In this document: in pieces, positions 9,577-18,654 of the stretch
Layout of the letters: every line of letters starts with the position of its first letter
Numbering within the stretch: the first letter of the stretch is position 1
Origin: Fidelibacterota bacterium
GTDB taxonomy: Bacteria > Fidelibacterota > Marinisomatia > Marinisomatales > TCS55
Assembly (NCBI GenBank): GCA_002730315.1
Contig: PBZW01000020.1
Coordinates: forward strand, 1 to 51,099
Direction: 5' to 3'
Length of the DNA stretch: 51,099 bases
Notes under the pieces: generated by a model
Seen by the model: the letters and a program-made list of their open reading frames with translations, nothing else
Database searches by the model: none
Told to the model about the DNA's origin: nothing
Made by a program: the position numbers and the translations under genes

Positions 9577-10905
9577 ATGTTTGAACAAATTACAGATCGT
9601 TTTGATGATATTTTCCGCCGTCTCCGGGGACTGGGGAAGATCACTGACAGCAATATCCAGGAAACAGCGCGGGAGATCCGTCGAGTGCTACTGGAAGCAG
9701 ATGTGAACCTGAAGGTCGCCCGTGAATTCATTACCCACGTCCAGGAGAAAGCTGAAGGAACGAAGGTTCTTAAATCCATCAAGCCCGGGGAACAATTCAT
9801 CAAGATCATCCATGAGGAACTGGTCCATGTTTTAGGTGATGAAACGTCCGAATTGGATCTGAAGGGAAAACCAGCTGTCATCCTCATGGCTGGACTCCAG
9901 GGATCAGGAAAAACGACCACTTGTGCAAAATTGGCTAAAATGCTAAAATCGAATAGTAAAAAAGTTTTACTGGCTGCCGCTGATGTATATCGTCCTGCGG
10001 CTATTGAACAATTGCAGTCATTGGGCCAGCAAATTGATGTACCAGTATATGATGAAGGCCTTGTTGATCCAGTTGCTATTTGCAAGAATGCCTTGGATAA
10101 GGCCAAAAAAGATAAAATGGATGTGGTGATCCTGGATACAGCCGGACGACTCCATATTGATGGTGAAATGATGGAAGAGATCCAGCAGATCGCCGATGAA
10201 ACATCTCCAAATGAGGTTTTATTCGTAGCAGACAGTATGACCGGGCAAGATGCCGTTACATCAGCCAAAGCATTTTCTGAAGCATTGCCATTAACCGGTA
10301 CGATACTGACAAAATTGGATGGTGATGCCCGGGGAGGTGCAGCAGTATCGATCCGACACGTAACAGGCACTCCCATCAAATTTGCCGGTGTATCAGAAAA
10401 AATAGCAGGCCTTGAGCCATTTAATCCAAAACAAATGGCGGACAGAATCCTTGGGTTCGGAGATGTCATCAGCCTTGTTCAGAAAGCTGAAGAGATAGCC
10501 GATGAAAAAACGGTCAAAAAGCTCGAAAAGAAGATGCTCAAAAATGAATTTGATCTAGAAGATTTTCAGCTGCAGTTAAAACAGCTTAAAAAAATGGGGT
10601 CGCTCCAGCAATTAGTGGGGATGATGCCGGGAATGAATCGTAAACTGTTAAAAGGCATGAACATGGATGACAGCCAATTGTCATGGACAGAAGCTATTAT
10701 CAATTCCATGACTGTTGAAGAACGTAAGCACCCCAGTTTGATCGATGGCAGTCGCCGCAAACGAATCGCTAAAGGTTCAGGCCGGTCATTGCAAGAAGTC
10801 AACCAATTATTAAAGCAGTTTACGCAAATGAAAAAAATGATGAAACAATTTGGAAAAATGAAGCCCGGCAAAATGCCGCTGGGCAACTTCGCAGGAATAA
10901 GCTAA
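9577..10905 (+). CDS. ffh: Signal recognition particle protein Ffh (SRP54)
   Basis: A 442-residue GTPase that binds signal sequences on ribosomes and, with 4.5S RNA and FtsY, delivers them to the Sec translocon. In order: N domain (1-90), G domain with GLQGSGKTTTCAKLA (106-120), VILDTAGRLHIDGEM and TKLDGDARGGAAVS, then a Met-rich M domain (about 300-442). The M domain contains GMMPGMNRKLLKGMNMDDSQ and a final MKKMMKQFGKMKPGK tail. Length and motifs are normal. It leads the operon ffh-rpsP-khpA-rimM-trmD-rplS, a classic bacterial order. Confidence 0.98.
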   Translation: MFEQITDRFDDIFRRLRGLGKITDSNIQETAREIRRVLLEADVNLKVAREFITHVQEKAEGTKVLKSIKPGEQFIKIIHEELVHVLGDETSELDLKGKPAVILMAGLQGSGKTTTCAKLAKMLKSNSKKVLLAAADVYRPAAIEQLQSLGQQIDVPVYDEGLVDPVAICKNALDKAKKDKMDVVILDTAGRLHIDGEMMEEIQQIADETSPNEVLFVADSMTGQDAVTSAKAFSEALPLTGTILTKLDGDARGGAAVSIRHVTGTPIKFAGVSEKIAGLEPFNPKQMADRILGFGDVISLVQKAEEIADEKTVKKLEKKMLKNEFDLEDFQLQLKQLKKMGSLQQLVGMMPGMNRKLLKGMNMDDSQLSWTEAIINSMTVEERKHPSLIDGSRRKRIAKGSGRSLQEVNQLLKQFTQMKKMMKQFGKMKPGKMPLGNFAGIS

Positions 10906-10917
10906 AAGGAGAACGAA

Positions 10918-12219
10918 TTGGCTACTAAAATAAGACTGAAACGCATAGGACGCAGAAACAGACCGTTTTACCGCATTGTGGTTATGGATGAAAGGGCTCG
11001 CCGTGACGGTGCTGCCATTGAGGAATTGGGCTGGTTCAACCCATTGGAAATAGATGATGAAAAGAATTTATCTCTTAAAGAAGACAGGATTTTACATTGG
11101 CTGGGAGAAGGTGCCCAAACCACAGAAACAGCTCATAATATTTTAAAACGAACAGGCCTGGCCCACCGTTGGCATTTGATCAGCAAGGGACTAGACGATG
11201 CTGCTGTTGAAAAAGAAATGAAAAAATGGGCATTGGAGCGTGAAGAAGTGGTAAAAAGCAGGGCAGAAAATGTGGCTAAAAAAGCGGAAGAAAAACAGCA
11301 AGCCGCAGAGCAAGAAGCTGAAGCCGCTGCTGCAGCCGAAGCAGTAGAAGAAACTCCTGTTGAAGCAACAGAAACTAAAGAAGCAGAAGCAGTTGCAGAA
11401 ACACAAGAAGATGATACAACCGAAGAAGATCAAACTGATGAAGCAACAGCTGAACCCGTAACAGAGGATGCACCTGCAGAGGAATCCGCAGATGAGTCGA
11501 TGGAAGAAGCTACAGAAGAACCAGTAGCAGAAGAGACATCAGAAGAAAAAACAGATGAAAAACCTCAAGCTGAGGAAGGCGAAACTGCAGAAGCAGTTGC
11601 AGAAACACCTGAAGTAGCAGAGGAAGTTGCAGAGGACTCCAGTGACGAAACGGCTGAAGAAGAACCGGCAGAAGAGGCGACAAAAGAAACCAGTGCTGAG
11701 GAACCGGTAGCTGAAGAAGGTGAAGCAGAAGAATCAGCTGAAGCAACGCCGACGGAGGAAGAAAAAGCCGAAGATAGTTCTGAAGAAGAAAGTACTGATG
11801 AAGAAGCTAAAGAGGAGCCAGCTGAGGACAATGGTGCTGATGAAGAGGAAGTTGAAGAAGGAAAAACAGAAGACGAAGCTCCTGTAGAAGAAGCAGTTGA
11901 AGAAACCGAAACAGCAGCTGATGAGCCACAAGAAGAAGATGAATCGGAAGCAGAAGAAGAAGCCTCTGACGCTGAAGGAGAAACCCCAGCCAAAGAGGAT
12001 GCGGCTGAAGAGAAAGCAAGTGAGGAAACGGAAGAAGCAGAAGCTACTGAAGAAGAGTCGACCGAGGAAGAAGCTGAAGAAGCAGCGGAGGAAGAAGTAC
12101 CAGTAGAAGAATCATCTGAAGAAGATGAAACTCCTGAAGAAGAAAATTCCACAGAAAAAGACACCGAACCAGAAGAAGAGGAAGAAGAATCTTCAAAGGA
12201 AGATAAAGAGGAAAAATAG
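10918..12219 (+). CDS. rpsP: Ribosomal protein S16 with very long acidic C-terminal extension
   Basis: The first ~80 residues are a normal S16 (MATKIRLKRIGRRNRPFYRI, ARRDGAAIEELGWFNP, LHWLGEGAQTTETAHNILKR), a 30S assembly protein. A helical linker (about 85-130) follows. Residues ~130-433 are a low-complexity tail of Glu, Ala, Thr, Ser, Val, Pro and Asp with almost no basic residues, such as EEATEEPVAEETSEE. Typical S16 has about 80-90 residues. FCB members often have extensions of about 100, so 433 is extreme. The TTG start is fixed by AAGGAG at 10906-10911 and by the conserved N-terminus. No frameshift is apparent, and one 22-base in-frame repeat suggests growth by duplication. The tail's function is unknown. 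Confidence 0.93.
   Translation: MATKIRLKRIGRRNRPFYRIVVMDERARRDGAAIEELGWFNPLEIDDEKNLSLKEDRILHWLGEGAQTTETAHNILKRTGLAHRWHLISKGLDDAAVEKEMKKWALEREEVVKSRAENVAKKAEEKQQAAEQEAEAAAAAEAVEETPVEATETKEAEAVAETQEDDTTEEDQTDEATAEPVTEDAPAEESADESMEEATEEPVAEETSEEKTDEKPQAEEGETAEAVAETPEVAEEVAEDSSDETAEEEPAEEATKETSAEEPVAEEGEAEESAEATPTEEEKAEDSSEEESTDEEAKEEPAEDNGADEEEVEEGKTEDEAPVEEAVEETETAADEPQEEDESEAEEEASDAEGETPAKEDAAEEKASEETEEAEATEEESTEEEAEEAAEEEVPVEESSEEDETPEEENSTEKDTEPEEEEEESSKEDKEEK
11383..11608 (+). repeat. 22-base direct repeat inside the rpsP tail
   Basis: The same 22 bases occur at 11383-11404 and 11587-11608. Both copies are in the same frame, 204 bases (68 codons) apart, and encode AEAVAET. The copies suggest past duplication within the acidic tail. 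Confidence 0.85.
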
Positions 12220-12246
12220 CGACGATTTAGTTGCAAGGAGACTGAC

Positions 12247-12480
12247 ATGAAGGATATGATCGAAGTTGTAGTGAAACAGTTAGTTGATAAACCGGACGAA
12301 GTCCAAGTAAATACCGTGGAAACAGAACAGCGTATTATCTACGAATTGACAGTTGGTGAAGGCGATTATGGTAAAGTGATTGGCAAGAAGGGCCGGAATA
12401 TTTCCGCATTAAGAACTCTCGTATTCGCCATCAATGCTAAAGAAGGGGGCAAGCGCGCCCGGTTGGATGTCATTGACTGA
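12247..12480 (+). CDS. khpA: KH-domain RNA-binding protein KhpA
   Basis: A 77-residue single KH-domain protein of the YlqC/KhpA family. The GxxG loop appears in GKVIGKKGRNISALRTLV at about residues 40-57. In other bacteria KhpA pairs with KhpB (Jag) and binds many RNAs. AAGGAG at 12235-12240 lies 6 bases before the ATG. Position between rpsP and rimM is the common bacterial order, which supports the call. Confidence 0.95.
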   Translation: MKDMIEVVVKQLVDKPDEVQVNTVETEQRIIYELTVGEGDYGKVIGKKGRNISALRTLVFAINAKEGGKRARLDVID

Positions 12481-15421: not shown

Positions 15422-16792
15422 ATGAGCAAAAACCAACTCCAGCAACTGCCATCTGTATCTGAAGTATTACTTGAAGTATCGTTAGATAACAGACATCATA
15501 ATAATTATATAACAAAAATTATTAATTCAGAAATTTTTAGATATAGAGTTGAAGCTAAAGCAGGAAAATTAAAACTTAAACGCAGTCAGATTGTTGATGC
15601 AATTAAAAATGAAATTAGTCGATTGGCTGAACCTTCCATGAAAAATATCATTAACGGTACTGGTGTAGTGCTGCATACTGGTTTTGGCCGGGCGCCGCTG
15701 TCAAAGAAGATCATTGCCAATGCTGCCAAACGTTTGGAGGGATACGTAAATCTTGAATTCAACCTAGATTCCGGTAAGCGGGGTGAGCGGTTGGACCATA
15801 TCAATGAGTTGCTGTCTGCCATCTGTGGTTCGGAAGCTAGTTTAATGGTCAATAATAATGCTGCGGCTGTTCTCATTGCTTTGAATACATTCGCCGAAGG
15901 GAAGGGTGTCATCGTTTCCCGAGGACAGGAAGTGGAGATCGGCGGATCATTCCGTATTCCCGACGTGGTGCGGAAAAGCTACTGTAATCTCGTGGAAGTG
16001 GGTACTACCAACCGCACCCATCTGAAGGATTACGAAAAAGCCATCACCAAGAACACCGGCGCCATCCTCTGGGCCCACACCAGCAATTACGTGGTCCGGG
16101 GCTTCACCAAGGAAGTGTCCCTCACAGAATTGGCATCATTGGCGAAAAAGAAACGGATCTCCTTGGTAGCCGATCTTGGTTCCGGCGCCTTGGTGGATAT
16201 GGTAAAAATGGGCCTCCCCTCGGAAAAATTGGTGGCGGATGTGGTGAAGGCCGGCGCCGATGTGATCACATTCTCCGGTGATAAACTACTGGGTGGACCT
16301 CAATCCGGGCTCATCGTGGGTAAGAAAAAATACGTGAATACCATCCACAACAATCCCCTTTACCGCACGTACCGCTGTGATAAGTGGACCATTGCCCTCA
16401 TGGAAGAAACACTGCGGACCTATCGTTCAGATCAGAAGGTCAGTGGTGATAATCTGTCCCTGAAACTACTGACCACATCCCGAAAGACCTTGATGAAACG
16501 GGGAGCAACGATCTTGAAAGGATTATCCAAAAAGATGATCAACGACCTGGGAGTTTCATTGGTGGAATCTGTAGTGGAAGCCGGAAGCGGTTCCCTGCCG
16601 GTGGAGACCATCCCCAGTGCAGCGTTACAATTCAAGCCAAAATCCATGTCAGTGTCTAAACTGGCCAAGGCATTTCGCACGGGAAACATCCCAGTAGTGG
16701 GTTTTACCAAAGGGAATACATTCACCATTGATCTGAAAGCGGTACTGCCGAATCAAATAAAAAAACTTATACAAGCTATCCAGGAGGTCTAA
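15422..16792 (+). CDS. selA: L-seryl-tRNA(Sec) selenium transferase SelA
   Basis: A 456-residue PLP enzyme that converts Ser-tRNA(Sec) to Sec-tRNA(Sec) using selenophosphate. Family marks: PSMKNIINGTGVVLHTGFGRAPL near residue 71 (in parts), VNNNAAAVLIALN, GTTNRTHLKDYE, LVADLGSGALVD and FSGDKLLGGPQSGLIVG. In the last, K288 is the expected PLP lysine. Size is close to the E. coli enzyme. The first ~150 codons are notably AT-rich compared with the rest. The stop overlaps the selB ATG by one base. The call is firm because SelB follows. Confidence 0.97.
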   Translation: MSKNQLQQLPSVSEVLLEVSLDNRHHNNYITKIINSEIFRYRVEAKAGKLKLKRSQIVDAIKNEISRLAEPSMKNIINGTGVVLHTGFGRAPLSKKIIANAAKRLEGYVNLEFNLDSGKRGERLDHINELLSAICGSEASLMVNNNAAAVLIALNTFAEGKGVIVSRGQEVEIGGSFRIPDVVRKSYCNLVEVGTTNRTHLKDYEKAITKNTGAILWAHTSNYVVRGFTKEVSLTELASLAKKKRISLVADLGSGALVDMVKMGLPSEKLVADVVKAGADVITFSGDKLLGGPQSGLIVGKKKYVNTIHNNPLYRTYRCDKWTIALMEETLRTYRSDQKVSGDNLSLKLLTTSRKTLMKRGATILKGLSKKMINDLGVSLVESVVEAGSGSLPVETIPSAALQFKPKSMSVSKLAKAFRTGNIPVVGFTKGNTFTIDLKAVLPNQIKKLIQAIQEV

Positions 16793-16794
16793 TG
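16781..16794 (+). promoter_or_regulatory. Strong ribosome-binding site and start of selB
   Basis: AGGAGG followed by TCTA and the ATG gives a near-perfect Shine-Dalgarno inside the end of selA. It fixes the selB start and marks selB as efficiently translated. Confidence 0.8.
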
Positions 16795-18654
16795 ACCCAA
16801 GTTGTCATCGGCACTGCCGGGCATATTGACCACGGCAAGACAGCCTTGGTAATGGCACTTACCGGTACGGACACCGACTGTTTGGCGGAGGAAAAAGCTC
16901 GGGGCATGACCATAGACCTGGGATTTGCTTTCTTAAATGAATACGTGACCATTATTGACGTTCCAGGTCACGAGAAATTCATCCGCAATATGGTGGCAGG
17001 TGTGTCCACCATCAATATTGCCCTGCTGGTGGTGGCCGCCGATGACGGCATCATGCCCCAGACGCGGGAGCATGTACATATTCTGAAACTTTTAAAAATT
17101 CCTCAATGTGTTATAGCCCTGACAAAAGTAGATCTTGTGAAAGATAGTGAATGGCTGGACCTGGTTGAATTGGAGGTCCGGGAATTGACGGAAGGCATTT
17201 TTGACAGCGTGGATGTGATCCGGACTTCTGTCCAGACCAACGAGGGGATCGATGAATTAAAACAGGTATTGGAATCAAAGGCAGCTGCAGTTCAGCAGTC
17301 AGAAAAAGAGGGCTTTTTTCGGCTCCAGGCAGACCGTGTCTTTTCCATGACAGGCTTCGGCACTGTGGTGACAGGGACCGTCATTTCCGGTGGATTGAAA
17401 AAAGGGGAAACTTTGGATGTCCTTCCCGGGAATATTTCATCCAAGGTCCGAGGGATCCAGTCCCATGGGGCAGATGTTGAGTCTGTACATCGGGGTGATC
17501 GGACAGCGGTGAATCTTTCGGGCGTGGAAGCGGATAAAATCTTCCGCGGGTCAGAACTGGCGACTCCCGGAAAACTGCACGCGGTAAAGAAATTCACAGC
17601 TCACATCCAGCTCACAGTGGACATGAAAAAGGATGTGAAGCACAGACAGCGGGTGAGAGTCCATTTGGGTACAAACGAGGTTATGGCACGTGTGTATTTA
17701 ACATCGAGCAAGAAAATGTCCGCCGGCAGTTCGGGAAATGTTATACTTGCTCTGGAAAAACCAACCGTGGCTGCTGTGGAAGATCGTTTTGTCATGCGTT
17801 CATATTCTCCCATGCACACCATTGGAGGGGGGACGGTGTTGACCACATTGATCCCCAAGAATGTGAAGATCGGGAAATGGGTGTCTGAATTGGATTTGAA
17901 CTTGGAAAAAAGGTTTGGTCAATTAGTTGCAACATTTAACCTTTCCCCAAAAACGGTTCATGACTGGGGACTTGTACTGCACATGACGGAAAAACGCGTC
18001 AGGGAATTGGTGAAAAAAACAGGACTGAAAACATCCCGACAGAATTTTATTTATACGGATGAAAATTTGCAGGATTGTATTGAATGGGTCATAGGATGCC
18101 TTGAAAAGTACCATGAGAACAATCCCCTCCGGAAAGCCATGTCTGTGGATGTGCTGAAACAGGAAACAGGATTGAGTGAAAAATGGCTGGCGGAAGTGCT
18201 GGAGATCATGGAAAACGATGGCTTCATTCGTTCAGCCGGAACGGGAGTGGCATTGGCCAGTCATGCAGTGGAACTGGAAGGCGGAACGGCAGACGTATCC
18301 CGGAAATTGGAAGAACAAATGATAAAAAATGGATTCACTCCTCTGACAACTGAAGAATTATCCGGCTCATTGAAAAGGGGGCATAAGGACATCCTGGAGA
18401 TCCTCCACGTCTTAAAGAGCGAAGAAACAGTGGTAGAGATCGAAAATGGTGTCTGGATGCACAGCCAAAACATGGCTAAACTGCGCCAGGAGATGAGTAA
18501 CCATTTTCACACCCAAACCGAAATGAATGTGGCAGACTTCAAACACATAACCGGTTTAACGCGGAAATTCGCCATTCCTGTCCTGGAATACTGTGACAGG
18601 CAAGGTTGGACGGATCGAGATGGAAATGTGCGTTTGAAGAGGGATAATCTGTGA
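16792..18654 (+). CDS. selB: Selenocysteine-specific elongation factor SelB
   Basis: A 620-residue GTPase that carries Sec-tRNA(Sec) to UGA codons that have a SECIS hairpin. The G domain has GHIDHGKTAL (residues 10-19), DVPGHEKFIRNM and ALTKVDLV. Two EF-Tu-like beta barrels follow, and a C-terminal set of winged-helix domains (about 380-620) is expected to bind SECIS RNA. VMRSYSPMHTIGGGTVL near residue 336 is typical SelB. Normal length. GTGA overlap joins its end to mutS. Presence of selA and selB implies that this organism makes selenoproteins. No selC or selD is visible in the window. Confidence 0.97.
   Translation: MTQVVIGTAGHIDHGKTALVMALTGTDTDCLAEEKARGMTIDLGFAFLNEYVTIIDVPGHEKFIRNMVAGVSTINIALLVVAADDGIMPQTREHVHILKLLKIPQCVIALTKVDLVKDSEWLDLVELEVRELTEGIFDSVDVIRTSVQTNEGIDELKQVLESKAAAVQQSEKEGFFRLQADRVFSMTGFGTVVTGTVISGGLKKGETLDVLPGNISSKVRGIQSHGADVESVHRGDRTAVNLSGVEADKIFRGSELATPGKLHAVKKFTAHIQLTVDMKKDVKHRQRVRVHLGTNEVMARVYLTSSKKMSAGSSGNVILALEKPTVAAVEDRFVMRSYSPMHTIGGGTVLTTLIPKNVKIGKWVSELDLNLEKRFGQLVATFNLSPKTVHDWGLVLHMTEKRVRELVKKTGLKTSRQNFIYTDENLQDCIEWVIGCLEKYHENNPLRKAMSVDVLKQETGLSEKWLAEVLEIMENDGFIRSAGTGVALASHAVELEGGTADVSRKLEEQMIKNGFTPLTTEELSGSLKRGHKDILEILHVLKSEETVVEIENGVWMHSQNMAKLRQEMSNHFHTQTEMNVADFKHITGLTRKFAIPVLEYCDRQGWTDRDGNVRLKRDNL

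Follow-up and report, generated by a model that had tools for sequence, protein, structure and literature searches.

Positions 10918–12219 on the forward strand of the window (the whole stretch of DNA analysed, 51,099 nt) were confirmed to hold a single intact rpsP gene whose product, a ribosomal protein bS16 of 433 aa, has a genuine long tail, about three times as large as S16 itself. The source organism is a MAG of Neomarinimicrobiota (SAR406), a marine lineage. Most ribosomal proteins are small and basic; this one is very probably built in three parts (an S16 domain, a conserved proximal extension and a disordered polyanionic tail), with selection acting on the tail. In size it is extreme among the bacteria sampled and ordinary for its own clade. 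Disordered bS16 extensions are already known from several phyla (Bacteroidota, Actinobacteria), and the present protein is an extreme version of them. For its length, its charge and the phylum-wide presence of the extension, as for S16 acidic tails or Marinimicrobia ribosomal extensions in general, no published description was found in a literature search that left most subscription journals outside.

Gene and operon structure

An AAGGAG site lies immediately 3' of the ffh stop codon, with the TTG start of rpsP 6 nt further on; the stop codon of rpsP is at 12217–12219. The features of the locus are:

9577..10905, forward strand: ffh (SRP54), upstream of rpsP; Pfam SRP54, 254 bits
10906..10911, forward strand: AAGGAG ribosome-binding site of rpsP; from the sequence
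10918..12219, forward strand: rpsP, ribosomal protein bS16, 433 aa, TTG start; open reading frame and PF00886, sole S16 of the assembly
12247..12480, forward strand: khpA (KH-domain RNA-binding protein); PF13083, 74.7 bits
12482..12985, forward strand: rimM; PF01782 and PF24986
12982..13695, forward strand: trmD; PF01746, 185 bits
13699..14040, forward strand: rplS (bL19); PF01245, 160 bits

The order ffh-rpsP-khpA-rimM-trmD-rplS is that of a classical trmD-type rpsP operon with khpA inserted. The 48 kDa product was matched by PF00886 over residues 9–69 (87 bits; Pfam cut-off 27) and by TIGR00002 over residues 4–81 (98.9 bits; cut-off 45.3), and a search of the whole assembly returned one S16 match, i.e. 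a single-copy gene. The nearest named records, from Candidatus Neomarinimicrobiota, were 81–88% identical to it over residues 1–110. The original prediction of a single intact gene was supported, the open reading frame lying at the coordinates it gave.

Alternate-frame and antisense open frames over the tail (e.g. 11565–12248, minus strand) were discarded, on composition, as a Ser-rich shadow of the GAA codons. Genes resembling selA and selB were noted by eye at 15422–18654 of the window, downstream of the rpsP operon, and suggest selenocysteine use; no tRNA genes were found within the window.

Anatomy of the protein

The protein was divided as follows:

10918..11163, forward strand: S16 domain, residues 1–82; PF00886, TIGR00002, AlphaFold2 pLDDT 88–98, Foldseek matches to ribosomal bS16
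11164..11253, forward strand: conserved proximal extension, residues 83–112 (W85-H86-L87, G91, W104, R108); conservation in 107 Neomarinimicrobiota S16
11197..11346, forward strand: predicted long helix, residues 94–143; AlphaFold2
11350..12216, forward strand: predicted disordered polyanionic tail, residues 145–433; AlphaFold2 pLDDT mostly <50, and composition

Conservation among the 107 phylum S16 compared continued past the S16 domain to about residue 108. The AlphaFold2 model (45-member alignment) had high confidence to about residue 143, covering the S16 fold and helix 94–143, a stretch rich in Ala, Glu and Lys for which the confidence may be overstated. When the model was used with Foldseek, bS16 of many ribosomes was retrieved, the closest extended one being that of Porphyromonas gingivalis. 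The net charge is +3 for residues 1–82, +1 for residues 83–130 and −133 for residues 131–433, and −129 for the whole protein (pI 4.05). Residues 131–433 consist of 41% Glu, 17% Ala, 10% Thr and 7% Asp, with no aromatics, no Cys and a single residue from F/W/Y/I/L/M; they contain 13 Lys and no Arg, in agreement with the predicted near absence of basic residues after about residue 130.

A check of disorder in the distal tail, proposed at the outset, gave AlphaFold2 pLDDT values of about 39–49 from about residue 150 to the C-terminus, and below 50 beyond about residue 160. About 80% of the bS16 is extension, and most of the extension is predicted to be a disordered polyanion. The acidic tail had been put at 330–350 residues; it is indeed very long, acidic and by prediction disordered, but the acidic disordered part amounts to about 290–300 residues, because the first 45–60 residues of the extension are conserved, of mixed charge and predicted to be helical.

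When S16 was compared with the proteins encoded in the S10-spc-alpha cluster, it alone carried a long acidic tail. With the tail as query no protein other than S16 was matched, and D/E runs of at least 6 residues are rare in the genome (other open reading frames with such runs, by eye, were cytochrome oxidase subunit II, a haem-protein-like one, GyrB and a membrane protein); a proteome-wide habit of acidic tails was ruled out on these two grounds. No basic extension was seen on uS3, uS4 or uS8, which weakens the idea of a basic partner for the tail. In two genomes of the same genus, uL5 has, by eye, a Lys/Ala-rich N-terminal extension of about 45 residues and a net charge of +20 for the whole protein (L231:4166–4882 and L232:11094–11807). 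The place of uL5 is the central protuberance of the 50S subunit, at a great distance from S16.

Occurrence and length of the extension

The phylum sample comprised 103 Neomarinimicrobiota loci with rpsP, 81 of them with a complete S16 gene. All 81 have an extension, the proteins being 138–461 aa long (median 251) and none shorter than 138 aa; 24 S16 in the phylum sample reach at least 300 aa. Complete genes of the same family encode 216–461 aa and those of the same genus 337, 359 and 461 aa, with a further S16 of 317 aa containing ambiguous bases; in a genome-reduced group (f15/g22, 0.4–1.0 Mb) the range is 165–266 aa. Comparison of S16 across the relatives, a check proposed at the outset, showed that they carry the tail, contrary to the idea that they might lack it.

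For comparison, genomes of Pseudomonadota (146), Planctomycetota (89) and Actinomycetota (100), phyla as given by the record titles of L112, L101 and L146, were searched, and the longest S16 among the 335 genes, with length bounded by the stop-to-stop open frame, was 253 aa (G370), one apparent fusion of 562 aa aside. In this Planctomycetota locus (L253, G517:C36) S16 is apparently fused to a domain resembling Maf at the end of the 562-aa open frame, as judged by eye. Apparent S16 open frames of 337–936 aa in other phyla proved on checking to be mostly upstream open frame. The expectation that the protein lies far outside the known S16 range stood against these three phyla and against Bacteroidota, which were represented by solved structures; it did not stand within the genus and family, where the size is ordinary.

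The Bacteroidota bS16 offer the nearest likeness. That of P. gingivalis (9i5v/9i5x, 192 aa) has a homologous proximal extension, alignable to about residue 117–127 and including the W104 position. Like the window protein, Bacteroidota bS16 have an Ala/Glu-rich distal tail, which is largely unmodelled (97–118 of 192 residues modelled in P. gingivalis, with 118/192 in 9i5v; 85/188 in the 188-aa protein of Flavobacterium johnsoniae, 7jil). S16 tails that are not resolved on real ribosomes thus have a precedent. The window protein differs in its 433 aa, in a tail about 4 times longer and in being far more acidic, and it scored 108.7 bits with NF011094 (PRK14521; Bacteroidota-type long S16), below the cut-off of 209 bits. 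Alphaproteobacterial bS16 (e.g. Aurantimonas, Jiella; 129–173 aa) share Ala/Glu/Pro-rich acidic C-terminal tails, but these are alanine-rich and short, ending 16–60 residues beyond the same cut.

Selection on the tail

Pairwise dN/dS was mostly 0.2–0.6 for the tail and 0–0.16 for the core, with tail dS similar to core dS; values from length-variable (gapped) tail alignments are biased downward, and pairs of the same length gave 0.18–0.47, except for L059/L068 (about 1). In neutral simulations of the window tail, 0.1 substitutions per site already introduced about 3.6 stops, which puts the open tail far outside what chance would give; 0.4 substitutions per site introduced about 10 stops and weakened the net charge per residue (−0.44 at the start, −0.16 at the end). 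By comparison, 20 observed long tails have a net charge per residue of −0.30 to −0.47 and an open frame. Since real tails keep their charge and open frame where simulated drift loses both, frame and composition are under selection. On these alignments, selection evidently keeps the tail open, nearly free of hydrophobic residues and, in most lineages, acidic, and keeps no particular sequence. Tail length shifts by in-frame tandem duplication and indels: tails grow by tandem duplication, as the three exact copies of a 53-aa unit in L072 show, and then diverge under a constraint on composition.

Composition nevertheless differs between lineages: over all 81 tails the net charge per residue ranges from −0.42 to +0.05 and is below −0.1 in 70. 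The phylum as a whole does not require a strongly negative tail, because four complete tails (L064, L062, L065, L168) have a net charge close to zero or just above it. Acidity increases with tail length (Spearman −0.42, p = 1e-4, n = 81, uncorrected for phylogeny).

Proposed function

The explanation preferred here joins the bS16 anatomy and the selection on the tail to a polyanionic brush, and as a whole it is held tentatively, at a little under an even chance; the brush function on the 30S surface, taken by itself, is placed at that level or slightly lower. The S16 domain would bind the 16S 5' domain, the conserved and probably helical extension (about residues 83–143) would lie on or project from the 30S body, and about 290 residues of disordered, polyanionic tail would follow. 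On the ribosome this tail may form a flexible, negatively charged brush, making ribosomes more soluble and restricting undesired contacts of ribosomes with one another or with nucleic acids. About 55 residues beyond the domain would be the required minimum, with the extra length tuned or tolerated; the spread of 337–461 aa within one genus suggests a weak constraint on length beyond such a minimum.

A more ambitious form of the proposal, in which Neomarinimicrobiota bS16 provides a dedicated brush that gives each 30S as many as about 130 negative charges, its length and charge tuned by selection for crowding, phase behaviour or nucleoid separation, seems improbable. If true, it would make bS16 a regulator of ribosome-surface charge, of which no bacterial description was found. 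Retained across an uncultured marine phylum, the tail is a natural experiment that bears on the importance of charge at the ribosome surface and of disordered tails.

Alternative explanations

Expansion of the tail could instead be nearly neutral: slippage or duplication in GAA/GCA-rich DNA would lengthen it beyond a short functional stub, and selection would only purge hydrophobic, basic or frameshifted products. This is unlikely, though it accounts for several observations. A tail from the same genus (L072) contains a 53-aa unit in three exact tandem copies, S16 tails of the genome-reduced group contain APAEE-type or (AP)(A/V)EE minisatellites, length varies widely inside one genus, and frame changes occur in the tails of four loci (L096, L102, L017 and L018). 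Against near-neutral expansion stand the lower bound of 138 aa among the 81 complete genes and the state of the window tail, in which Tandem Repeats Finder (TRF) detected weak residual repeats only and no exact repeat of at least 24 nt was found, so that it is old and diverged, yet still acidic. The tail uses Glu codons much as the neighbouring genes do (GAA 81% vs 75%, p = 0.21), so no RNA-level signal is needed, and such ordinary synonymous codon use also speaks against this explanation. About 300 extra residues per ribosome would, moreover, presumably be costly.

Little credence is given to an assembly aid in cis, in which the acidic tail, as an RNA mimic or chaperone, would shield the basic surface of newly made S16 until its placement on the 16S 5' domain. 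bS16 plays a key part in assembling the 5' domain, which it joins after uS4, uS17 and bS20 (PMC5591316); this is consistent with such an aid, as is the escort of eukaryotic eS26 by Tsr2, described in a paper that uses the term acidic tail (PMC6131548). However, the S16 domain has a net charge of just +3, a far shorter tail would suffice for shielding, and some relatives have neutral tails.

It is very unlikely that the extension is of the actinobacterial type, contacting uS4 and linking the body to the shoulder close to the mRNA entrance, with the tail acting on mRNA entry. Actinobacterial bS16 (Cutibacterium acnes 8crx, Mycobacterium 5o5j and 5v93) likewise have a C-terminal extension, the end of which is not resolved in C. 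acnes, but it measures 65–74 residues and binds uS4. It reaches uS4 both in C. acnes, where the rationale given is a short 16S h17 (PMC10085706), and in M. smegmatis (PMC6133939), and the strong conservation of the proximal extension would fit a similar contact here. The uS4 of the source genome is, however, of ordinary size, and V3/h17 is long in Neomarinimicrobiota: the 341F–515F spacing was 174–176 nt in 11 16S loci (one a duplicate record) vs 174 in Escherichia coli, and a search made without a positive control found short h17 spacing in 0/199 genomes. Compensation for a short h17, as in C. acnes, was rejected because h17 is long here; contact with uS4 by the extension itself is possible.

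The chance that the long tail stems from a frameshift or chimaera introduced in sequencing or assembly is negligible: its DNA is of low complexity and some relatives have contig ends or gaps within rpsP, but acidic-tailed S16 occur in independent assemblies of other projects, including a strain record (SCKN01000001, L076), frame and composition are conserved in relatives, and misassembly or frameshift of rpsP was ruled out, the tail being common to relatives from independent assemblies.

Contig ends, frame changes and a 16S rRNA contig

Contigs stop within rpsP at 18 of the 103 Neomarinimicrobiota loci (among L001–L071, L152–L171 and L233–L244), and gaps occur in several more. Assemblies seem to break at the repetitive tail, a possible reason for the absence of rpsP from about 20–28% of Neomarinimicrobiota genomes. 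Marker-gene completeness and phylogenies of the phylum are probably affected, because of these contig ends.

In two related genomes of one genus (L017 and L018, g10) the frame changes at about residue 275 of the S16 tail, close to GTT AAA AAG AGA, and beyond this point the acidic reading goes on, shifted to the −1 frame, until a stop is reached. The site has no canonical slippery heptamer; either a frameshift that has become fixed or ribosomal frameshifting could account for the change. On large contigs of the genome-reduced group (L096, L102) the acidic reading switches frame once or several times within the tail, which suggests either indels from assembly or real frameshifts that are frequent in the repeats.

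The 16S rRNA binned with the source genome (G000:C40:2275–3846, L183) is only 72–76% identical to Neomarinimicrobiota 16S. Contig C40 is probably a contaminant, as judged from this value, since the 16S of a congener (L176) is about 78–88% identical to other Neomarinimicrobiota 16S.
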